32,054 nucleotides of DNA. Origin: Gammaproteobacteria bacterium. Its GTDB lineage: Bacteria > Pseudomonadota > Gammaproteobacteria > SG8-11. Shown here one piece after another: positions 19,871 through 31,654 of this stretch; positions within the stretch are counted from its first letter, which is position 1, and each line of letters opens with the position of its first letter. The stretch is from assembly GCA_024641505.1 (NCBI GenBank), contig JAHECY010000044.1, forward strand, positions 1-32,054, in the 5' to 3' direction. Position numbers and translations under genes: made by a program. A model generated the notes under the pieces. That model saw only the letters and a list, made by a program, of their open reading frames with translations. It searched no databases and had not been told where the DNA came from.

Positions 19871-22800
19871 CTATTGTAGACGCTGCCACATGAGGCGGCC
19901 CTGCGGGGTACCGGTAATCGCTTGTTCCGGCGGACTGGTCTGGCTGGCTACCGGCTCCGGCGTACATGCCAGGTCGCCCGGATCACACGGTTGCGTATTG
20001 GTGATCACCGGCGCGGTATTGGTCGCGCCGGTACCACCGAGCGAACCGTCCGAGAAGTTCATCAAGATCAGGTCCGTGGTGCCGCCTTCGCCCTGAATCA
20101 GTGCCGGTGCCGACGGAATACCGTGGGTCGATTGCGAGCCGCTTACCGCGTAGCCGTTGACCAGATCAGCGGACGTGAACCGACCGTCGCCGTTGAGATC
20201 CAGTGGCGACTGGCCGAGACGGCTGCCGTCAAAGGCATCCAATATCATCAGCCAGCCGGTGCCACCGAAGATGCAGGGGCCGCTGGCCGGGATCAGGGTG
20301 CTGAAGATAATACGGCCGTTACGCAACACCGGTTCCGTGATCACGCGTTCCCCGTTGTTCTTGCCGGTGGCCACATTCACCAGGTCCATGTACCAGCCCT
20401 TGTGTTTGGACCAATCGATGATGTTGTCCGTGGTGACGCGGAAGTTGCTGCCCCAGCTGAAACCAACCTCGTTCAAGATCTGTTGTTGCAGGAGATTGGC
20501 GCGGGTAAATGGCGCGAACGCGGTTGCGTCGCCCTTTTCCCATTGATCCCAGATGGAGTAGAAAGTCTGGGTCGGTACCCCGGTCATGATGTTGTCGGCG
20601 CTGTTAAGGTATCTGCCGGTGCCGAAATAGATCAGGTAGCCGGGGTGCAGGGGATGCGGTCCGATCGTCATCTTGGCGGTAATGGACTGCATGGAGCCGT
20701 CCGGCGATTTGGCGGTGAACAATGGTTTGCCGCCGAAAGAAATACCCCACTTTGCCGGGTCGACGTCGGAAACATCGAAGCGCCAGAGATTGCCGAACAT
20801 GTCGCCACCGTAGAGGAAGTCAACCTTGAAATCCTGGTCAGCATCCATGGCCGCCACGGCCATGACGCCGTTGGCGCGATTGCCGCCGGTAGGGTCCTTG
20901 GCCATGCCGTAACCGGTATTCAGCTTCTTGATGAGGGTACCGGTGGCGATATCGACAACGTAGATTACCGCGTTACCGGTGGTGCTCGGGTTAGCATCGG
21001 CAATGGTGTTGTTCAGGCCGTTACCGAATACCGCGGCCCACTTGCCGGTCGCGAGACGGATGACGATTGGATCGCTGAAGGTCAGCCCCAGGTCGGCATC
21101 GTTCTTATCGGTAAACTCCCACAGGAAGGTTTTTCCTGGAGTCGCTTCGGAGAAGATGCTGGGATCGGTGACGTCCAGCGCCATCATGGCTTGACCGCCG
21201 CCGCGCATGCCTTCCACCACGACCGTATGCCAGTCAGGGTTGGTGGCGTCGCCGAAGTTCGCGTCACCGGCGGTGGGTGAGCCGTCGATGAAATAGGTGT
21301 GCGAATAAGAAGGCGAAGACAAGCTTGCCAGCTTACTGTACGTGGTATTGGGAACATAGGCGATCAGTTCCTGGCCCGATGTCGCCGGGAAGGTACCGTC
21401 CTTGTTGATGGAAGCGTCGAAGCCGTGCAGCAAGCCGTCATTCGCGCCAACATATACCAACGGTTTGCGGTTGGCGTACTTGACGGCGAAGTCGGCGTAA
21501 CCATCGAAGCTGTAATATCGGTTAGGCGCGCCGACGAACACCGGCGCCGAATTGATGATGTCGCCCAGGGTGGACGGCCACACGCTGCCGCGGTGACGGA
21601 ATTTCAGTGTGCCGCCGCATTTCGCGGGATCGCCGATTTCCAGTTCACAGTTGCGATCGCCACGCAGGAAGTCCAGTACCAGTGGGTCGCTGTTCAATGC
21701 GGTCTGTTGCGCTGCGGTCAAGTTTGCCCAGCGGAAGGGCGCGCTGGTGGTGCCGTCCGAGGTAATAATGGTGCGGGTGGTGGGGTCTTGCTTCAGCACC
21801 TGGGTGGCCACGCTTCTGAAGTTCTTGACCACGCCACCGGTGATTTCGGCGAACGGGATGAACAGCAGATCACCAGCCCAGTCCTTGGTGTGGTACTTGG
21901 CCTGGAACACCAGGGTGTCGGTGCGTACCGTGGTGGTGTTGAAGGACAATGCGGCGGTGGCCGCCGAGCGGGCGACGATGCTGCTGAGCATGGCTTTGAG
22001 CGCGGTCACCAGTTTATCGGGATCGTTGGCTTCCAGGAACTCGCCACGGCCGTTATAGGCGGCATGCCGCAGATCGTCGATTTTGTATTCATCCAATGTC
22101 AGCAAGGGATTGGGCCAGCCGGGAAATACCGGGCAGGCTACCCCGTCCGCGTCCGTGGTTTCATCAGGCATGCACTTGAGGGAACCATTGACGCCGAAGG
22201 CGATGCCGTAGGTGACCATGTGCTGGGCATTGTTCTGGTCCACGCCCAGGATGGTCGGCACGTTATTGGCGGTGGTGGGACGGATGTCCGTTTCATAATA
22301 GTACATGGCGATATCCGCCAGGGTGGTGTACTTGCCCTTGATGAGATCCTTATAGTTGCCGCCGTCCCACAGGGAGTTGCCGTCACTGTCGGTATCCAGG
22401 ATTTGCGGGCTCTGGGTTTTTTCTTCCTGATAAAAGCCGTCGGTCAGCAGCAGCGTGAAATTCTGCTGGCATTCGCCGCCCGAGCCGGCAGGCAGGGGCG
22501 CGGTCTGGCTGCTGGAGAAATAGCTGTTGGTCTTGCCGGACAGGTATTTGCCGATTTCGTGCAGGGCGCTGAGAGTCGGCGTGGCGCCATTGGGGTCGAG
22601 CTGATACAGCTCCGCCAGTAAGGCCGCGCGATTCGCTTCCCCGGCGACGGAACTGTCGATCAGGGCAACGTGTTTTTTATGCACGGAATTGGGGTGAATC
22701 GTCGCCATGCCCAAACGCATGTTCTGCACGGTGGCGATGGTATGGCCGAACGCGCCTTTCGCCATCAAATGCCGTGAGCGGTAATAGGAGAACCAGTTGG

Positions 22801-23614
22801 CGAAGTTTTGCTGCACCTGGGCCACGGTTTTGCCCCAGAGCGCAACGGTTTTAACGGCCGGGATCGTGCCCAGTTCGCCGTTGAGGTTGCCGATCTGGTA
22901 GGCGGTTTGCTCGCCATCCTGATACTTACCGTCTTTGGCGTAATAAGTAGCCGGGACGGTCGCGGGCGATTTTTCCTTGCCGTCCGTCCAGGTGTAGAAA
23001 TACATGCCGCCGGGCAACGCGATGCGTTTACTGCCCGCGCCGACATTGGGATCCCCCGCGGTAAGATCCACGGCTTCGTTTTTCGGGTCCTTGGTGCTGT
23101 AAGGATCGTACCAGGCCGCCGCTACCGGCATGTTGGCGAAGGCAACGCCCTTGTCATCCACGCCTTCCCAGGGCACGTAATCCCGTTTCGGATCGAAATA
23201 CAGGGGATTAAAGTCATGGTTGCGAAAGCGCCAGTTGTCGCTGGTGGCGACGTCGCAGGCATCTCCGCTGTAGTTCAGTTGGTGATCCACGACGAAGCGA
23301 TACGACACGCTTTTGCAGTTCGTGCCGTAGGGATTGACGGGCAGGGTGCCGAAGCCGGCGACGTCGGTGCCGTCGGGCTGGTTGGTGCGCACCAGGCCGT
23401 TTTGTTTCCAGTCACGGGTGATGGCGTCCCAGCCCATACTGCCGGAATCGTCGATCAGAAAGACGATATTGGCCGGTACCGCCGTGCCCAGAAACAGCGG
23501 CGTGTCGGACAGGGTCCAGAGCGTGGCATGGGCGCCGGTGGTGGCGAATGCCAGCGCCAGCAGAGATAACCTGCCGAGAGCCTTGGCGTATTGGGTGATG
23601 GTTTTGTTTCTCAT
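19871..23614 (-). CDS. pilY1: Type IV pilus tip adhesin PilY1
   Basis: Secreted protein of 1247 residues. The signal peptide is at 1-30 (ends GAHA). A von Willebrand A-like domain starts at about 50 with the MIDAS motif DDSGS (55-59), and a C-terminal PilY1 beta-propeller begins near RGSVWPSTLGDIINSAPVFV, then RKPLVYVGANDGLLHGFD. Calcium-type loops: DADQDFKVD (about 918-926, at the site matching the calcium loop that controls pilus retraction in P. aeruginosa PilY1), DLNGDGRFTSAD (about 1139-1150) and DTDSDG (about 404). The protein caps the pilus with the minor pilins and mediates adhesion and surface sensing. The frame allows a GTG start at 23621-23623, but GAGAGG (23623-23628) points to the ATG at 23612-23614. 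Confidence 0.96.
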   Translation of the reverse strand: MRNKTITQYAKALGRLSLLALAFATTGAHATLWTLSDTPLFLGTAVPANIVFLIDDSGSMGWDAITRDWKQNGLVRTNQPDGTDVAGFGTLPVNPYGTNCKSVSYRFVVDHQLNYSGDACDVATSDNWRFRNHDFNPLYFDPKRDYVPWEGVDDKGVAFANMPVAAAWYDPYSTKDPKNEAVDLTAGDPNVGAGSKRIALPGGMYFYTWTDGKEKSPATVPATYYAKDGKYQDGEQTAYQIGNLNGELGTIPAVKTVALWGKTVAQVQQNFANWFSYYRSRHLMAKGAFGHTIATVQNMRLGMATIHPNSVHKKHVALIDSSVAGEANRAALLAELYQLDPNGATPTLSALHEIGKYLSGKTNSYFSSSQTAPLPAGSGGECQQNFTLLLTDGFYQEEKTQSPQILDTDSDGNSLWDGGNYKDLIKGKYTTLADIAMYYYETDIRPTTANNVPTILGVDQNNAQHMVTYGIAFGVNGSLKCMPDETTDADGVACPVFPGWPNPLLTLDEYKIDDLRHAAYNGRGEFLEANDPDKLVTALKAMLSSIVARSAATAALSFNTTTVRTDTLVFQAKYHTKDWAGDLLFIPFAEITGGVVKNFRSVATQVLKQDPTTRTIITSDGTTSAPFRWANLTAAQQTALNSDPLVLDFLRGDRNCELEIGDPAKCGGTLKFRHRGSVWPSTLGDIINSAPVFVGAPNRYYSFDGYADFAVKYANRKPLVYVGANDGLLHGFDASINKDGTFPATSGQELIAYVPNTTYSKLASLSSPSYSHTYFIDGSPTAGDANFGDATNPDWHTVVVEGMRGGGQAMMALDVTDPSIFSEATPGKTFLWEFTDKNDADLGLTFSDPIVIRLATGKWAAVFGNGLNNTIADANPSTTGNAVIYVVDIATGTLIKKLNTGYGMAKDPTGGNRANGVMAVAAMDADQDFKVDFLYGGDMFGNLWRFDVSDVDPAKWGISFGGKPLFTAKSPDGSMQSITAKMTIGPHPLHPGYLIYFGTGRYLNSADNIMTGVPTQTFYSIWDQWEKGDATAFAPFTRANLLQQQILNEVGFSWGSNFRVTTDNIIDWSKHKGWYMDLVNVATGKNNGERVITEPVLRNGRIIFSTLIPASGPCIFGGTGWLMILDAFDGSRLGQSPLDLNGDGRFTSADLVNGYAVSGSQSTHGIPSAPALIQGEGGTTDLILMNFSDGSLGGTGATNTAPVITNTQPCDPGDLACTPEPVASQTSPPEQAITGTPQGRLMWQRLQ

Positions 23615-23622
23615 GTTAAACA

Positions 23623-23628
23623 CCTCTC
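23623..23628 (-). promoter_or_regulatory. pilY1: Ribosome binding site deciding the pilY1 start
   Basis: GAGAGG (minus strand) lies 8 bases before the ATG at 23612-23614. It overlaps the alternative GTG codon at 23621-23623, which would have no site of its own. Confidence 0.65.
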
Positions 23629-23676: not shown

Positions 23677-24252
23677 TTACCAACGATACAGTGACCGTAA
23701 AATGCGCACTGTCGTCGGATTGATGCCGGTTGCCCGGGTGGTGATTCGGTAATAGTTAACGATGGTGGAGCTGGCGCACCAGGGGCAACTGGACTTGACC
23801 CGGTACAACTCAATAATGATTTCCGGTGCGGTGACAAACTGCAGCGCCTGGGTGCCCACCAGATCACCGAGTTTCACGGCATTGAGACCCCACCAGGTAT
23901 CGGATGCGCTGGCGCAAACTTCCGCGACGGTACCGCAAAAACCGGTCGGCTTGATAATGGCGCTGTCCAGCGGTGTCAGAGGTCCGGAATTGCGCAGCCA
24001 GGTTTCCGCTTCCCGCAACGCGGATTCCGCGGAATACAACGCCAGGTTCTGATCTTTGATATTGCGCGTGATCAGTTCTTGATGGATGCCGCCGGAGCTG
24101 GCGGTCAGACCCAGCAAGGTCAGAATGACCAGAAATACCAGACCCACCACGAGCGCGCTGCCCTTTTGTCGGTTACGGCCTGTTATTGTGATGTTGCTCG
24201 GATTCGGACGTGTCATGGCGAATGTCCCGTATTTAACTGAGTTGAATGTCAT
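23677..24252 (-). CDS. pilX: Type IV minor pilin PilX
   Basis: Minor pilin of 191 residues. The prepilin site is RNRQKG then SALVVGLVFLVILTLLGLTA; there is no Glu at +5, as is usual for PilX and the related GspK-type subunits that sit at the pilus tip. The conserved NLALYSAESALREAETWL helix and four cysteines follow. The ATG at 24250-24252 overlaps the pilW TGA (ATGA) and is taken as the start; a second ATG at 24214-24216 would give a shorter leader and cannot be excluded. PilX links the minor-pilin complex to PilY1, which is the next gene. Confidence 0.9.
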   Translation of the reverse strand: MTFNSVKYGTFAMTRPNPSNITITGRNRQKGSALVVGLVFLVILTLLGLTASSGGIHQELITRNIKDQNLALYSAESALREAETWLRNSGPLTPLDSAIIKPTGFCGTVAEVCASASDTWWGLNAVKLGDLVGTQALQFVTAPEIIIELYRVKSSCPWCASSTIVNYYRITTRATGINPTTVRILRSLYRW

Positions 24253-25127
24253 ACGCATAAATCCAGACCTGCCGCCCGGGCGCACCGGTTCCTGAGTTTG
24301 ATGGTGCTGGTCATGACCCGGCGCTGGCGTTTGTCCTTCGCTGCCGGCACGATGGTGCCGAGCAGGTTGTAGGTGGCGGTATCGGGGGCGGAGCGGGTTT
24401 CTTCCGCGGATGCCACCAGTATCGCGATGCGTACCGTCAATACCTGCAAGGGATTGGCGATGGCGTCAAACGGCAGATATCGGTCCGGCGCGCCGTCGCT
24501 GGGCACATCGGTATCCACGCCATAAAGAATCTCAAGGCGTTCAATACCGTCCACCAATTCGATGTTATTGCAGAACAAAGCGGGTCGCCCGGAGACGGGG
24601 CTGTTCTTGACGAGGATCTGGTTACTGATGCCATAGCTGGCGATAACGGCGACGTTGGGATTGAACGGTGCGGTAGCCGCTGTCACCACGGTGCCGACGC
24701 AATCGATGGGCGGATTGCCGGCATCATTGATCATGATCGGATCGGCCATGGTGTTGATGGTGAGGCTGTCGCTGGTCAGGCCGTTGCCTTCGGTACCGCT
24801 GAGCGGCATGTTCGCGCCATAGGCCCAGAGTTCCACGTCGGCTTTGTCGGTTTTGCCGTTGTTGTCGGCATCCATATCCGGAAAATTGTCGATATCGGGT
24901 ACGTAACCGGTGTCCGACAATACACCCGAGATGAAGTCCAGCGCGAAGCCACCGTTGTCAAACATGCCGGACAAGGCATCGTTGTAACGGTAGGCCTTTT
25001 TGTTGGCGCTGAAGATATTGGCAATGCCGGCGACCAGGACCAGGCCAATGACCATGGCGATCATCAGTTCGACCAGCGTGAAGCCGCGTTGGGTTCTGTC
25101 TGACATGGCAAGTTTCCACTGTTTCAT
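24249..25127 (-). CDS. pilW: Type IV minor pilin PilW
   Basis: Minor pilin of 292 residues. The leader MKQWKLAMSDRTQRG is cut before FTLVELMIAMVIGLVLVAGI (Glu at +5). A large globular domain follows, typical of PilW/GspJ subunits, with the family phrase LDFISGVLSDTGYVP. An unusual feature is a complete EF-hand-like loop at 86-97 (DADNNGKTDKAD), which could bind calcium. The start is the ATG at 25125-25127, overlapping the pilV TGA (ATGA); an upstream in-frame ATG at 25181 lies inside pilV and is ignored. PilW bridges PilV/FimU and PilX-PilY1 in the tip complex. Confidence 0.93.
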   Translation of the reverse strand: MKQWKLAMSDRTQRGFTLVELMIAMVIGLVLVAGIANIFSANKKAYRYNDALSGMFDNGGFALDFISGVLSDTGYVPDIDNFPDMDADNNGKTDKADVELWAYGANMPLSGTEGNGLTSDSLTINTMADPIMINDAGNPPIDCVGTVVTAATAPFNPNVAVIASYGISNQILVKNSPVSGRPALFCNNIELVDGIERLEILYGVDTDVPSDGAPDRYLPFDAIANPLQVLTVRIAILVASAEETRSAPDTATYNLLGTIVPAAKDKRQRRVMTSTIKLRNRCARAAGLDLCV

Positions 25128-25714
25128 AGGTCGACTTCCATTATGTAGCAGTTCAGATCTGTATTGCTTTGGGGTGGGCAATTCAGGCCCGTGGCGCCGG
25201 TGCGTTCACCGTCCCAGCGCATGGTGATGGTGAAGCGCGCGCGTGCCGGTCCGGGAGTGCCGAGGGTGCCGGGATACAAGCGGATGGTGTTGCCGCCGTT
25301 GTCCACCATGTCGGTGCGTGTGATGTAGCCACCGGCATAGCCGGTCGGGCCCGGCAGCACCACCAGGTTGTCGGTATACCATTGCAACAGGTCATACGCT
25401 TCCAGTTGACCGGGAGTGCACATTGCGGACAGGCAATTGACACCGGCAGCGGGCGGGGTCATTGGCGTAACGTCACTGTAGAGTGTTGCGCCACCAGGGG
25501 GCGGATAGATGCCGCCGATATTCGCCCGCATTCTGTCCGCCATCTCATTGGCCTGTTGAATCGCGGAAAGGCGCATGGCGGATGAGGCGCCACTCTTGAG
25601 AGTGAAGGCCTGCAAACCGGCGATGCCCAGCAAACCGATGGAAAGAATAAGCAGTGCCACCATGTTTTCTAACAGGGTGAAACCGCGTTGGCTGTTGGTG
25701 AGGGTCGTATGCAT
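25124..25714 (-). CDS. pilV: Type IV minor pilin PilV
   Basis: Minor pilin of 196 residues. The leader MHTTLTNSQRG is cut before FTLLENMVALLILSIGLLGI (Glu at +5), followed by the family region LQAFTLKSGASSAMRLSAIQ and NEMADRMRANIGG. The frame also has an ATG at 25730-25732 that overlaps the end of fimU. AGGT lies before the second ATG (25712-25714), and that start gives a typical leader length, so it is preferred. It is the second gene of the operon and overlaps pilW. Confidence 0.9.
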   Translation of the reverse strand: MHTTLTNSQRGFTLLENMVALLILSIGLLGIAGLQAFTLKSGASSAMRLSAIQQANEMADRMRANIGGIYPPPGGATLYSDVTPMTPPAAGVNCLSAMCTPGQLEAYDLLQWYTDNLVVLPGPTGYAGGYITRTDMVDNGGNTIRLYPGTLGTPGPARARFTITMRWDGERTGATGLNCPPQSNTDLNCYIMEVDL

Positions 25715-25722
25715 ATGGTTAC

Positions 25723-26241
25723 CTATGCGCATTTTTTGGCGGTGGTGGTGGTGATGCGCTCAGCCCGCGGTTTTCCGGCGGTGTTGACGCTGATCCGGGT
25801 GCCGGTGGTGACTTCGGCATCGGTTTTGTTGCGCGCTTTACAGAAATCCACGGTCACCCCGCCCACGGGGAGAATGAAGCCGTTGTTCCGGTAGGTGATC
25901 ACGGGGGCGGTGGCGCTAACGGTAATGGTATCGGGAACTCCCGCATAAACCCGGATCGTGGTGTTAGTAACGTCCTGAACGATCCATCCGGTTTTCCAAT
26001 CCGTCGGATCCGCGCTGCAGTTTACCTGATCGGTGCTGGCGCAGATGGTGGCGCCCCCGCTGCGGATGGCTTCACTGCGCGCCAGGTGCAGACCTTGTAC
26101 CAATGAATTTGCCGAAGCAACCAGGGTGTTGTGGTCCAATACGGCGTACATTTTTGGCATGGCGACCGCCATCAGGATAATGATGATCCCAACGGTGACC
26201 ATCAATTCCACGAGTGTCAGGCCTGATTGAAGTTTGCGCAT
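25723..26241 (-). CDS. fimU: Type IV minor pilin, GspH/FimT/FimU family
   Basis: Minor pilin of 172 residues. The leader is MRKLQSG, then LTLVELMVTVGIIIILMAVAMP; the first mature residue is Leu rather than the usual Phe, and Glu is present at +5. The GspH-type helix (ANSLVQGLHLARSEAIRSGG) and a beta-rich domain with cysteines follow. It is the first gene of the operon, in the place of FimU in P. aeruginosa; only one GspH-like gene is present here, without a separate fimT. The ribosome site is weak. Confidence 0.88.
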   Translation of the reverse strand: MRKLQSGLTLVELMVTVGIIIILMAVAMPKMYAVLDHNTLVASANSLVQGLHLARSEAIRSGGATICASTDQVNCSADPTDWKTGWIVQDVTNTTIRVYAGVPDTITVSATAPVITYRNNGFILPVGGVTVDFCKARNKTDAEVTTGTRISVNTAGKPRAERITTTTAKKCA

Positions 26242-26467: not shown

Positions 26468-27145
26468 CTACGCACTGGTGACAGGTTTGGTGTGGTTGAT
26501 GTCACTGGTGCGCCAGGAGATGCGCTCCAGGCGGTTCTTGATGGCGATGATCAAACCCAGTCCGATGAAAGCGCCGGGCGGCAGTATCGCGAGCAGAAAT
26601 CCCCGGTAATCGTCCACCAGGGTTATGGTCCAATGCTGGGCCTGGGCACCGAACAACAGATGTGCCTGCGCCAGTAAAGTGCCGCGTCCCAGGCTCTCGC
26701 GCAACGCGCCCAGCAGCACCAGAATTACAGTAAATCCCAGACCCATGGCCAGACCGTCCAGGCAGGAGCGCGCCATGGTGTTTTTGGAGGCGAACGCTTC
26801 CGCGCGCGCGATGATCACGCAATTGGTGACGATCAGGGGAATGAAGATGCCAAGGATTTTATAGAGATCGTACAGGTAGGCGCGCATCGCCAGTTCCACC
26901 GCGGTAACGAAACAAGCGATGACCAGCACGAACACCGGAATACGCAGTTCCGGCCGCACGATATTGCGAATCATGGCAACGGTACCGTTGGAGCCGATCA
27001 GTACCAGCGTGGTTGCCAGTCCCAGTCCCAAGGCATTGACCACGGTGCTGCTTACCGCCAGCAACGGACACAGACCGAGTATCTGGACGGTGGCGGGATT
27101 GTTGCGCCACAAGCCGTCCTGGATGATGCTGCCGTAATTTGCCAT
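26468..27145 (-). CDS. rnfE: Rnf electron transport complex subunit RnfE
   Basis: Integral membrane subunit of 225 residues with about six hydrophobic helices. It shows [25 protein letters not shown] at the start and [22 protein letters not shown] in the middle, a motif shared with RnfA (related to NqrD/NqrE) that includes the conserved membrane cysteine. Rnf couples electron transfer between ferredoxin and NAD to ion movement. It is the last gene of the operon, 5 bp after rnfG, with GGAGGGTAA serving as its ribosome site and containing the rnfG stop. Confidence 0.96.
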
Positions 27146-27150
27146 GAGTA

Positions 27151-27789
27151 TTACCCTCCTGGAGGTGGGGCCGGGCCAAAGATCAGGTCCTGGTGGTCTT
27201 TATAATAGAGCAGGGCATTGTGGATGGCTTGTACCACCGCCCGAGGTGTTATGGTAGCACCGGTGAATTGATCAAAATAGCCACCGTCTTTCTTGACATG
27301 CCAGCCCTGGGTATCCGGCTGGGTCAGGGATTTCCCCTGAAAGCTCTCGATCCACCGGGTCTTTTCCGCTTCGATCGCATCGCCCAGGCCGGGAGTTTCC
27401 CGGTGTTCCAGAATGCGCGCCCCGGCGAGGCTGCCGTCCCTGCGGATGCCGACCAGCATCTTGATGGCGCCGCTATAACCGTTGGGGGCATACACCGTGA
27501 GCACGGCGGCGCTGGGTTCGCCGTGCAGCCGTGCCCGATACACGGTCACCGGCTTACGGCTGCCGAGGTACTGCGCGTCGGTGACTTCCAGGGTATCGTG
27601 AAAGATGTCATTGTCGTGGTCCGACGGTTTAACTATGGAGTGCAGCGTGCGAATGATGGCCGCGCGTTCGCTGGCGGCAATACGATCCTTGGTCACGTCG
27701 AAGGTGTAGGCCACGAGGCCGGTACCGATCAAGGCGAACAGTGCCAGCAGTACCGCGGAACGCCACATGTTTTTACGCAGTGCTTCCAT
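27151..27789 (-). CDS. rnfG: Rnf electron transport complex subunit RnfG
   Basis: Membrane-anchored flavoprotein of 212 residues. One N-terminal transmembrane helix (about 10-29) is followed by a periplasmic FMN-binding domain. The covalent FMN site is the TGAT motif in [12 protein letters not shown], with Thr179 as the attachment residue. [12 protein letters not shown] is the other family block. The ATG shares one base with the rnfD TGA, so translation is coupled. Confidence 0.96.
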
Positions 27790-28823
27790 CAGTCGCGCTC
27801 ACCATGACCGAACGCGCGCGGCTGCGTGAAATGATCCAGGGTCGGCGCCGCCATGTTCATGAGCAGGACCGCGAACGCGACACCGTCCGGATAGCCGCCC
27901 CAGGTGCGGATGATGTAGGTGATGATGCCGATGCCGGCACCGTAATACAGACGACCCCGGTTGGTGGTGGCCGCGCTCACCGGATCGGTGGCGATGAAAA
28001 ATGCCCCCAGCATGGTGGCGCCGCTGAACAGGTGCAACATTGGGTCACTGTAGCGTCCCGGGTCCAGCAAGTGGAAAAAGCCGGCGCTGATCAGCAAGGC
28101 GAGCAGCATGGCGACCGGAATGTGCCAATGGATGATCTTGCGCCACAGCAACAACAAGCCACCGAGCAGCGCCATTGCGTTCACCCATTCCCAACCCGTG
28201 CCGCCGAGGCGGCCGTAAAGTTCGCCGTTGTTAAGGATCTCGACCATGCTGTGCGTACGACTCAGTTCCATGCGAAGATGATCCAGCGGCGATGCCATGG
28301 TGACCGCGTCGACGCCGGTAATGCCGGCATTGAAGATCAGGTCCAGGGTGGCGCCAAAATCATAATGCAGGGCGCTGTGGGTCGCCGGCGTCAGCCAGGC
28401 GGTCATTTCCCGGGGGAATGAAATCAGCAACAGCACATAACCGACCATGGCCGGGTTGAAAGGATTGTGCCCGAGTCCTCCGTACAGATGTTTGGCGACG
28501 ACGATGGCGAAACTGACGCCGATCACGGTGAGCCACCAGGGCGCCAGCGGCGGAATCGCAAAGCACAGCAACGTGGCGCTCACCAGAGCGCTGCCATCCG
28601 TTAGAAACAGCATTCGCGATTTGTCGCGCAACGACAGCATCAGCGCTTCACACCCCAGTGCCGTAGCGCAAGCCAGCGTCAGATGCACCGCAATACCGGC
28701 ACCGAAAAACCAGCCATGGGCCAGTAGCGCCGGCAACAGGCACGCCAGTACGGTGAACATCAGTTTGGGCACGGAGTTCGGGCCATGAATATGCGGCGAG
28801 CTGCTGGTGCGTAATACTGTCAT
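27789..28823 (-). CDS. rnfD: Rnf electron transport complex subunit RnfD
   Basis: Polytopic membrane subunit of 344 residues, related to NqrB, with covalently bound FMN. The attachment site is GVDAVTMASPL (Thr175). Other family blocks are HNPFNPAMVGY, GAFFIATDPVSA and RTWGGYPDGVAFAVLLMN. It lies 15 bp after rnfC and overlaps rnfG by one base. Confidence 0.97.
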   Translation of the reverse strand: MTVLRTSSSPHIHGPNSVPKLMFTVLACLLPALLAHGWFFGAGIAVHLTLACATALGCEALMLSLRDKSRMLFLTDGSALVSATLLCFAIPPLAPWWLTVIGVSFAIVVAKHLYGGLGHNPFNPAMVGYVLLLISFPREMTAWLTPATHSALHYDFGATLDLIFNAGITGVDAVTMASPLDHLRMELSRTHSMVEILNNGELYGRLGGTGWEWVNAMALLGGLLLLWRKIIHWHIPVAMLLALLISAGFFHLLDPGRYSDPMLHLFSGATMLGAFFIATDPVSAATTNRGRLYYGAGIGIITYIIRTWGGYPDGVAFAVLLMNMAAPTLDHFTQPRAFGHGERD

Positions 28824-28838
28824 AGGGTCACTATAGGG

Positions 28839-30521
28839 TTACTGGGCGTCACTATTTTTGTTTGGGGGGCGTTCGGTGCGTTGCCGGCGGTGTTGCTTGC
28901 GGCGCGCCTCCACTTCGTCGATCAACTGTTGCTGTTGTGCCGACAGATTGTCCACGTTGCGGGGTTTCGTGTCCGATTGCGCTTTGCGTGTCTTGACGCG
29001 CTCCACGGCCGCGGCGATCGCGGCTTTCTTGCGCGCCAGATCTTCTGCCTCGGCGCTCGGTGCGTGCAGGGCATCGGCTTTTTGTTTGTGGCGCAACGCG
29101 CGCTCGGTTTTCTCCCGTTCCAGCCGAAATTGGCGGAATTCATGGCGCTGGCGCGCGATGTCCGCTTTTTCCTTGTCGTGTTCCTGAGCCCAGATTTCAC
29201 TTTTGGCGAAGCGATAATATTGCACCAACGGAATGTGGCTGGGGCATACATAGTCGCAGCAGCCGCATTCGATGCAATCGAACAGGTGAAAATCCTGGAT
29301 CTTGTCGAAATCGCGGCTGTGGGCATGCCAGTAAAGTTGCTGCGGCAGCAGATTCGCGGGACAGACGTCGGCGCAGTTACCGCAACGGATACAGGGCATG
29401 GCCGCGCCATGGTTGCCGTAGGGCAGACGCTTGCCCTGTTGCTGCACCAGAATGCAGTTACAGGTCTTGATTACCGGCACATCGCCGCGGTGCAGGGTGT
29501 AACCCATCATCGGACCGCCGATGATGACAGCGCTGACTTGCGCCGGATTGATGTCGAAGCTGCGCAGCAGAAAATCCACCGGGGTGCCGTAACGCACTTC
29601 CAGATTCAGATCGCGTGGTACGTGACCGGCCAGGGTGACGATGCGCGAAATTGAACTTTGGCCCAGGTAGACGGCCCGATGCGCCGCCGCGGCCGTCGCC
29701 ACATTGTGGCAGACGATACCGGCGTTGATGGGCAGTGCTTTGGCGGGAATTTCGATGCCGGTGAGCAGTTTGATCAGCTGTTTTTCGCCGCCGGCGGGAT
29801 AAATGGCGGGTATCGCGCGCACGCTCACGTTGCCGACGCCGGCGCTGGCCAGCGCGGCTTGCATGGCGGCGATACTTTCAGGTTTGTTATCTTCGATGGC
29901 GATCACCGCCTGTCGGGCGCCCAGGGCATGCATCATGATGCGGGCGCCGCTGACCACGGCGGGCGCCCGTTCGCGCATCAGCATGTCGTCACAACTGATA
30001 TAAGGTTCGCATTCGGCGCCGTTCAATACCAGCAGTTCCACCGAATTGCCACCGCTGGGCTTGAGTTTGACCGCGGTCGGAAAGCCGGCGCCACCCATGC
30101 CGACGATGCCGGCCTGACGAATCAGTTTACGCAGAACATCCGGCGCCAGGTGCGGGAAATCATCGCCGGTGATGGTGGGTGAATCACACCAGCGATCAGC
30201 ACCGTCGGTGGTGACAACAATACAGGGCGCTTGCAGGCCCGACGGGTGTGCCACCGGTCGTTTCTCGATCGCGGACACCGTACCGGAACTGCTGGCGTGA
30301 ATGTTGGCGCTGATGGCGCCGGTGGCGCGGGCGATGACCTGACCGGTCAGCACCCGATCGCCGGGTTTGACCACGGGTTCCGCCGGAGTGCCGATGTGTT
30401 GTTGCAGTGGGATGACGAGCTGCGGTGGCAGCGGCGCCTGCTGAATCGGCTGGTCGGTGGCGCCCGCTTTGAAGTCAACCAGCTTCAGGCCGCCATGGAA
30501 GGAAAATAAACGTGTGTTCAT
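28839..30521 (-). CDS. rnfC: Rnf electron transport complex subunit RnfC
   Basis: Peripheral NADH/FMN- and Fe-S-binding subunit of 560 residues. The N-terminal barrel-sandwich part is followed by the nucleotide-binding [13 protein letters not shown] (141-153) and [13 protein letters not shown]. Two [4Fe-4S] motifs are present: [12 protein letters not shown] (Cys377, 380, 383, 387) and [12 protein letters not shown] (Cys416, 419, 422, 426). A charged, Ala/Lys/Arg-rich helical tail of about 120 residues follows, typical of gammaproteobacterial RnfC. The ATG at 30519-30521 overlaps the rnfB TGA (ATGA). The frame is open upstream to 30626, but that stretch lies inside rnfB. Confidence 0.97.
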
Positions 30522-31069
30522 GGCAGTGCCTGCGGGCGTGGTTCCGGAAAAGGTACTTTCCAGTTGTCGACGTTCTGACGTACCGGGATGATGTAGATGC
30601 AGTCCACCGGGCACGGGGGGATACACAGCTCACAACCGGTGCATTCTTCGGCGATCACGGTGTGCATTTGTTTGGCGGCTCCCAGAATGGCATCCACCGG
30701 GCATGCCTGAATACACAGCGTGCAGCCGATGCACAGGTCTTCATCGATCTCCACCACCACCTTTTCCTTGTGCGTGCCATGTTCCTCGTTCAAGGGTTTG
30801 GGGTCACGGCCCAGCAGGTCCGCCAGCGCATGAATCACCGCCTCACCACCCGGCGGGCACTGGTTGATATCCGCGCCGCCATCGGCGATGGCCTGGGCAT
30901 AGGGTCGGCAGCCGGGGTAGGTACACTGACCGCACTGGGTTTGGGGCAGGATGGCGTCGATTTTATCCACCAGGGGATTGCTTTCCACCCGGAAACGCAC
31001 CGCCGCGTACCCCAGGATCATGCCAAACACCGCACCCAGCAATGCCAGGATCAATACCGCGGTCCACAT
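30518..31069 (-). CDS. rnfB: Rnf electron transport complex subunit RnfB
   Basis: Ferredoxin-like subunit of 183 residues. It has an N-terminal membrane anchor (about 3-24), a cluster-binding motif CGQCTYPGC (Cys46, 49, 54 and Cys71), then two [4Fe-4S] ferredoxin motifs (Cys113/116/119/123 and Cys143/146/149/153). It probably delivers electrons between ferredoxin and RnfC or the membrane subunits. It starts 3 bp after the rnfA stop and overlaps rnfC. Confidence 0.97.
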
Positions 31070-31072
31070 GAT

Positions 31073-31654
31073 TTAACCCCGCACCAGGCCGGAGAAGCCC
31101 ATGAACGCCATGGACATCAGGCCGGCGGTAATCAGGGCGATGGCCGGGCCGCGGAACGCCAGTGGTACGTCCGCGGCGACGATGTGTTCGCGCATGGCGG
31201 CGAACAGTATCAACACCAGGGAAAAACCCACCGCGGCCCCGAAGCCGTAGAGCGCGGAAGAAAAGAAATCCAGCTCCTGCTGCACATTGAGCAGGGCGAC
31301 ACCCAGCACCGCGCAATTGGTGGTGATCAAGGGCAGGAAAATTCCCAGCACCTGGTACAGCAACGGGCTGGTTTTATGCACTACCATTTCCGTGAACTGA
31401 ACCACCACCGCGATCACCAGGATGAAACTGATGGTGCGCAGGTAGGTGATATCCAGCGGTACCAGAATGAAATGATTCACCAGATAACTGCAGATCGACG
31501 ACAGGGTAAGCACGAACGTGGTCGCGAACGCCATGCCAATGGCGGTCTCCAGTTTTCGGGACACGCCCATGAACGGGCACAGCCCCAGGAATTTGACCAG
31601 CACGAAGTTATTCACCAGCACCGTGCTGACCAGGATCAATAAGTATTCAGCCAT
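31073..31654 (-). CDS. rnfA: Rnf electron transport complex subunit RnfA
   Basis: Integral membrane subunit of 193 residues with six hydrophobic helices. It starts [20 protein letters not shown] then [12 protein letters not shown], with [20 protein letters not shown] in the middle. It is paralogous to RnfE and contributes the membrane Fe-S/ion path. It is the first gene of the rnf operon. AAGGA lies 12 bases before the ATG, a rather long spacing. Upstream of it a REP-like copy (31683-31703) lies in the leader or promoter region. Confidence 0.97.

Follow-up and report, generated by a model that had tools for sequence, protein, structure and literature searches.

Calcium-type loops in the minor pilin PilW: a recurrent C-terminal hairpin loop as a stronger candidate site than an acidic loop at residues 86-97

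That type IVa pili depend on calcium is attributed in the accessible literature to PilY1/PilC; the calcium motif Dx[DN]xDGxxD has been described for PilY1 (PMC8833165, PMC13190605). The effects of calcium differ between species, and calcium-free PilY1 resulted in no pili in one species (PMC4471445). In Myxococcus, formation of the cluster_1 complex depends on calcium, which its authors credit to PilY1.1 (PMC8833165), and PilW3 does not localise without PilY1.3, which itself needs PilV3 and PilW3 for its localisation (PMC13190605). Calcium sites are also described in pilin-like subunits of a related filament, the type II secretion pseudopilus, where the tip-complex subunit GspK/XcpX and GspG carry them (PMC6211770; calcium in pseudopili is also treated in PMC7248040 and PMC5131608). 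At the level of the loop itself, Dx[DN]xDG calcium loops are known to occur in a strand-loop-strand setting, and CD2 acquired a calcium site when a loop of this kind was placed between two of its strands (PMC3123361). The main text of that paper by Rigden and Galperin contains 'PilY1' 10 times and 'pilin' and 'PilW' zero times in a term search. For PilW, no description of a calcium loop was found in the open-licence literature as far as its text was available, and a description may exist elsewhere; in the accessible text of PMC6322766, Ca2+ is mentioned for PilW/PilV only at helix residue E5.

The window analysed here is a stretch of 32,054 nucleotides from a Gammaproteobacteria bacterium (contig JAHECY010000044.1). 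On its minus strand, ORFs together with Pfam and NCBIfam searches delineated a minor-pilin cluster of the canonical fimU-pilV-pilW-pilX-pilY1 type, made up as follows.

25723 to 26241, minus strand: fimU / gspH-type minor pilin (Pfam GspH, 3.2e-13)
25124 to 25732, minus strand: pilV (NCBIfam TIGR02523, 4e-18)
24249 to 25127, minus strand: pilW, core minor pilin, 292 aa plus stop (ORF, translation, Pfam and fold search)
23677 to 24285, minus strand: pilX (Pfam PilX_N, 2.8e-10; PilX, 1.6e-06)
19871 to 23623, minus strand: pilY1, tip adhesin, 1250 aa (Pfam T4P_PilY1, 9.3e-54)

The pilW reading starts at the ATG at 25127 and yields 292 aa. Its product matches the Pfam family PilW (PF16074, 5.3e-20; 72.1 bits against a cut-off of 26), has a prepilin N-terminus (N_methyl, 4.6e-10; 39.1 bits against a cut-off of 21.2) and is encoded next to fimU, pilV, pilX and pilY1. 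The predicted fold is that of a PilW/GspJ-type pilin, with Z 13.2 to TTHA1219 and Z 8.9-9.6 to the GspJ-type XcpW/EpsJ (fold search; VIA-align rows below Z 4 were taken as background), and Foldseek alone matched the model below E 0.001 solely to TTHA1219 chains. Sequence searches of the PDB found no PilW structure. The earlier note on this DNA took PilW to adjoin PilY1 in the tip complex, but the two may not be neighbours: in Myxococcus models PilV and PilX lie between them, although PilW had been placed just below PilX by pull-downs in that system (PMC11046646). Adjoining the pilin cluster, at 26468-31654 on the minus strand, are ORFs that include two whose Cys motifs are of ferredoxin type, along with several membrane proteins. 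We take the ORFs of this stretch to resemble Rnf/Rsx electron-transport subunits.

The earlier note proposed an EF-hand-like calcium loop within PilW. The loop and the structural element predicted to follow it are located as follows.

24837 to 24872, minus strand: flagged loop DADNNGKTDKAD, PilW residues 86-97, within the hypervariable stretch that follows the long N-terminal helix (translation)
24819 to 24845, minus strand: short predicted helix, PilW residues 95-103, overlapping the end of the flagged loop (AlphaFold2, low confidence)

Translation confirmed the sequence, strand, coordinates and residue numbers of this loop. Its spacing, D-x-D-x-N-G-x-x-D-x-x-D, brings Asp or Asn to positions 1, 3, 5, 9 and 12 and Gly to position 6, a likeness to dockerin and EF-hand loops that extends to the short helix predicted behind it. 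It differs from them in its single copy and in several further features. Position 8, which is Ile, Leu or Val in EF-hand loops (PMC3123361), is Thr93, and position 5 is Asn90 and not Asp, the one departure from the strict Dx[DN]xDG motif. A PROSITE-style EF-hand pattern had no match anywhere in PilW, and the Pfam EF-hand and dockerin models, which are short and insensitive, had none in the full protein (limit E 1) or in the flagged segment (limit E 10, with most matches above about 0.1 dropped). An EF-hand or dockerin domain as a family assignment for residues 86-97 was rejected for lack of such a match. In the AlphaFold2 model of PilW (73 sequences; mean pLDDT 82.9), the region of the loop, residues 81-100, has block means of only 57 and 60; a 3-residue helical turn is predicted with low confidence at residues 79-81, and no helix is predicted to enter the loop in this low-confidence region. 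Thus, the residue pattern is present as proposed, but the label 'EF-hand' is unearned given Thr at 8, Asn at 5, the missing Pfam match, the low pLDDT and the lack of a predicted entering helix. A fair name for the feature is 'Dx[DN]x[DN]G loop'.

To place this loop in its family, PilW relatives were collected and counted. Scanning the genome collection with the single window PilW as query returned zero relatives, and the scan with alignment A2 contributed the best 80 of 369 loci, at 24-55% identity in the best segment. One PilW ORF set comprised 131 of 210 candidate ORFs, the rest being short or without the C-terminal pattern; alignment A3 was built from 74 rows, with six left out for odd ends and one dropped for a stop codon. 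For counts at the C-terminal site, 313 aligned domains gave 288 distinct ones that had both the Y and the G column with 22 residues following, of which 270 remained at <80% identity, and removing 19 without an upstream pilin motif gave a set of 251 proteins. The PilW set is biased towards relatives of the window and high-scoring PilW; the least biased sample is that of the phylum, with 30 loci plus 80 from further down the ranking and the lowest rows left out.

The segment after helix alpha1, home of the flagged loop, is hypervariable in PilW. Among 251 non-redundant proteins in which this segment was readable, the 12-residue acidic pattern was found in the window PilW alone (1/251), so residues 86-97 are not supported as a control point conserved in PilW. 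The nearest relative read (39% identity) and a second one (30%) have no such loop there. Among same-family genomes, no convincing pilW was found in three (best E 0.047); the fourth, the sole one with a recognisable pilW, holds the C-terminal part of the gene on a contig that ends before the flagged site. One of the first three, which belongs to the same genus and is 79% complete, had neither a PilY1 nor a convincing PilW among the matches, by incompleteness or loss of the pilus cluster.

When residues 41-292 of the window PilW were shuffled 20,000 times, 0.4% of the shuffles contained the 12-residue pattern and 3.5% a looser version restricted to positions 1, 3, 5, 6 and 9. Across the family, however, 209 of 500 shuffled sets of the 251 PilW held at least one 12-residue pattern; one match in 251 is expected by chance, and the rarity of the pattern in a single PilW is therefore no evidence of function. 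A plain chance match would nevertheless be too strong a verdict, because the six-residue core D.[DN].[DN]G is enriched after alpha1. Between alpha1 and the C-terminal site, the core occurs in 16/251 PilW (shuffle mean 4.9, maximum 12), and in the post-alpha1 segment in 7/251, the window included, compared with a mean of 1.02 and a maximum of 4 in region shuffles and a mean of 1.40 and a maximum of 6 in local shuffles (0/300 reached 7; six position bins were tested). The seven proteins share 26-41% pairwise identity, with one pair at 51%. Calcium-type loops thus seem, from these counts, to arise occasionally in the post-alpha1 segment of PilW lineages, and a sporadic extra calcium loop is possible, since the short core recurs there above shuffles. 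Part of the excess may reflect clustering of Asp, Asn and Gly in loops, because reversed or permuted motifs reach 0-4/251 in the same segment.

These data bear on the reading that both loops of PilW bind calcium, residues 86-97 being an accessory, lineage-acquired Ca2+ site that orders the variable segment of the PilW head; this keeps the proposal of the earlier note but drops the EF-hand label. Such a reading draws on the good ligand spacing of the flagged loop, on the short helix predicted to leave it and on the core in the post-alpha1 segment of 7/251 PilW, above both region and local shuffles, but it has to accommodate Asn at 5 and Thr at 8, the low model confidence, a full pattern that does not recur, reversed or permuted motifs that reach 0-4/251 and the testing of six position bins. 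We regard it as unlikely.

A second site of calcium type was found near the PilW C-terminus, directly after a conserved 'YG'. Its copy in the window is located as follows.

24483 to 24515, minus strand: PilW family loop after YG, DTDVPSDGAPD, residues 205-215 (alignment, AlphaFold2)

The C-terminal domain has the consensus YGVDTDGDGVANRY in the hit alignment and LVEGVENMQILYGVDTDGDGVANRYV among the fetched PilW relatives, and the loop consensus is DTDGDGVAN. Its general form, D-x-[DN]-x-[DN]-G-x-x-[DN], is spaced like the calcium motif of PilY1, Dx[DN]xDGxxD, and the standard loop, in a strand-loop-strand context, matches the Dx[DN]xDG motif of Rigden and Galperin (PMC3123361). Across the 270 non-redundant domains, loop position 1 is Asp in 207, positions 3, 5 and 9 are Asp or Asn in 167, 168 and 145, respectively, and position 6 is Gly in 91. 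All four ligand positions (1, 3, 5 and 9) are Asp or Asn in 113/270 domains (63 of these also have Gly at 6), compared with a mean of 0.31 and a maximum of 2 when the 26 residues after YG were shuffled. At the YG site, the six-residue core was found in 67/251 PilW in the forward direction, 2/251 reversed and 1-19/251 permuted. By sample, the four-ligand loop occurs in 12/24 relatives, 44/75 of the class, 28/68 named genomes and 28/102 of the phylum, and named carriers include Nitrosomonas oligotropha, Methylomagnum ishizawai, Neptunomonas japonica and Legionella adelaidensis; one Pseudomonas PilW that was read is without it. The number of Asp/Asn ligands per domain (n = 270) was four in 113, three in 39, two in 34, one in 58 and none in 26. 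The loop is therefore dispensable for PilW, many domains keeping fewer than four ligand positions.

The window itself carries a lengthened copy, VDTDVPSDGAPDRY, with D205, D207, D211, G212 and D215. At D205-T-D207-V-P-S-D211-G-A-P-D215 it is two residues longer than the consensus, and its ligands are out of register with positions 1, 3, 5 and 9. The lengthened form was counted in 13/270 domains, and 144/270 were neither standard nor lengthened by the patterns used. In five other loci, as in the window, it reads DTD plus three residues, then DG or DQ, another two residues and a final N or D. In the AlphaFold2 model of the window PilW, the loop joins a strand at 195-204 to one at 216-218, with block pLDDT values of 93 and 94 covering residues 201-220. 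The Methylomagnum PilW, which has the standard loop, was likewise modelled as strand-loop-strand (mean pLDDT 77.3; block pLDDT 93-94). On this evidence, the hairpin loop is a better candidate for a calcium site in PilW than the flagged loop, and a plausible new member of the Dx[DN]xDG calcium-loop group. The earlier idea of a calcium site in PilW is kept, as a candidate Dx[DN]x[DN]Gxx[DN] loop of the family, and its position shifts from residues 86-97 to the C-terminal hairpin.

We further compared the hairpin with GspJ, the PilW counterpart in type II secretion, using the 30 best-scoring loci of the class sample, 28 of them readable. The core motif after residue 60 was found in 0/28; one of the 28 had a four-ligand match somewhere after residue 60. 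Where visible, the equivalent GspJ hairpin is short and contains Trp, as in RFLDxxxxWxxxWPP. Because this control is without the core, the loop looks like a PilW feature, either acquired in the pilus proteins or lost from their secretion counterparts. Calcium sites in type II secretion differ from the PilW candidate in lying in subunits K and G, not in J, and at other positions. The major pseudopilin is GspG.

The GspJ result also feeds the opposite reading, in which neither PilW loop binds calcium and both are ordinary Asp/Asn/Gly-rich turns of an extracellular protein. More than half of the PilW domains are without the full ligand set, the GspJ proteins read are without the core, and the calcium sites reported for the XcpVWX structure are in XcpX and not in the GspJ-type XcpW (PMC6211770). 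Turn propensity alone, however, hardly explains a four-ligand loop in 113/270 domains where 0.31 are expected, or a forward core in 67/251 where the reversed motif gives 2, and we consider this reading improbable. Weighing these comparisons, we slightly favour an explanation in which the flagged loop, an acidic turn particular to this lineage, may hold a calcium ion weakly but is neither a conserved control element nor an EF-hand, and in which the calcium-type site characteristic of PilW is the hairpin after YG. We consider it most likely that the hairpin loop takes up a single Ca2+, either in the periplasm or in the extracellular space.

The nearest described counterpart of such a site in the same complex is the propeller loop of PilY1 (D851-D859 in P. 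aeruginosa), which resembles the PilW loop in its ligand spacing of 1, 3, 5 and 9 and belongs to the same pilus tip complex. It differs in that it sits in a beta-propeller and has a measured role for calcium, whereas the PilW candidate loop sits in a pilin head. The PilY1 of the window has a loop of this kind as well.

20819 to 20845, minus strand: PilY1 propeller calcium-type loop DADQDFKVD, residues 927-935 (sequence)

The loop DADQDFKVD is followed by FLYGGDMFGNLWR, much like other PilY1 proteins. Two further stretches of the window PilY1 are of similar composition. Residues 1142-1153 (20165-20200, minus strand), DLNGDGRFTSAD, form a good 12-residue dockerin-like loop after the propeller, which agrees with 'motif 3' of PilY1 as cited in PMC13190605; a 12-residue dockerin-like pattern occurs somewhere in 18/57 PilY1 ORFs that come from other genomes and are 900 aa or longer. 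Residues 410-418 (22370-22396, minus strand), DTDSDGNSL, lie towards the N-terminus of PilY1 and are likewise rich in Asp and of the Dx[DN]xDG type.

Co-occurrence of the PilW and PilY1 loops was assessed in 60 hand-picked loci, of which 30 carry the full PilW loop and 30 lack it; the PilY1 site was read by eye, and no significant link was found. The PilY1 loop was present in 24/29 loci that have the PilW loop (absent in 5, one further locus unscored) and in 16/26 without it (absent in 10, four more having no PilY1 match), a difference with a Fisher p of 0.13 that is uncorrected for kinship and blunted by seven loci of the 'without' group that are short of one ligand only.

Under the preferred explanation, with the hairpin as the site, bound Ca2+ would close the hairpin in the globular head of PilW and make it stiffer, thereby stabilising PilW within the FimU-PilV-PilW-PilX-PilY1 complex. 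The role of the ion in PilW would then probably be structural and not switching. A structural Ca2+ in PilW would fit the localisation and calcium-dependence data from Myxococcus. As a broader and more tentative proposal, which we hold to be possible though short of probable, the type IVa pilus tip complex may have PilW as a second subunit that binds calcium: Ca2+ in the family-wide hairpin loop, a loop not seen in GspJ, would be required for the minor-pilin complex to be stable, and some lineages, that of the window among them, would add a post-alpha1 loop. The presence or absence of the PilW loop by lineage would introduce an extra variable, giving tip complexes with one versus two calcium-type sites. 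If PilW is indeed such a second subunit, some of the calcium dependence that is at present assigned to PilY1 would belong to PilW.
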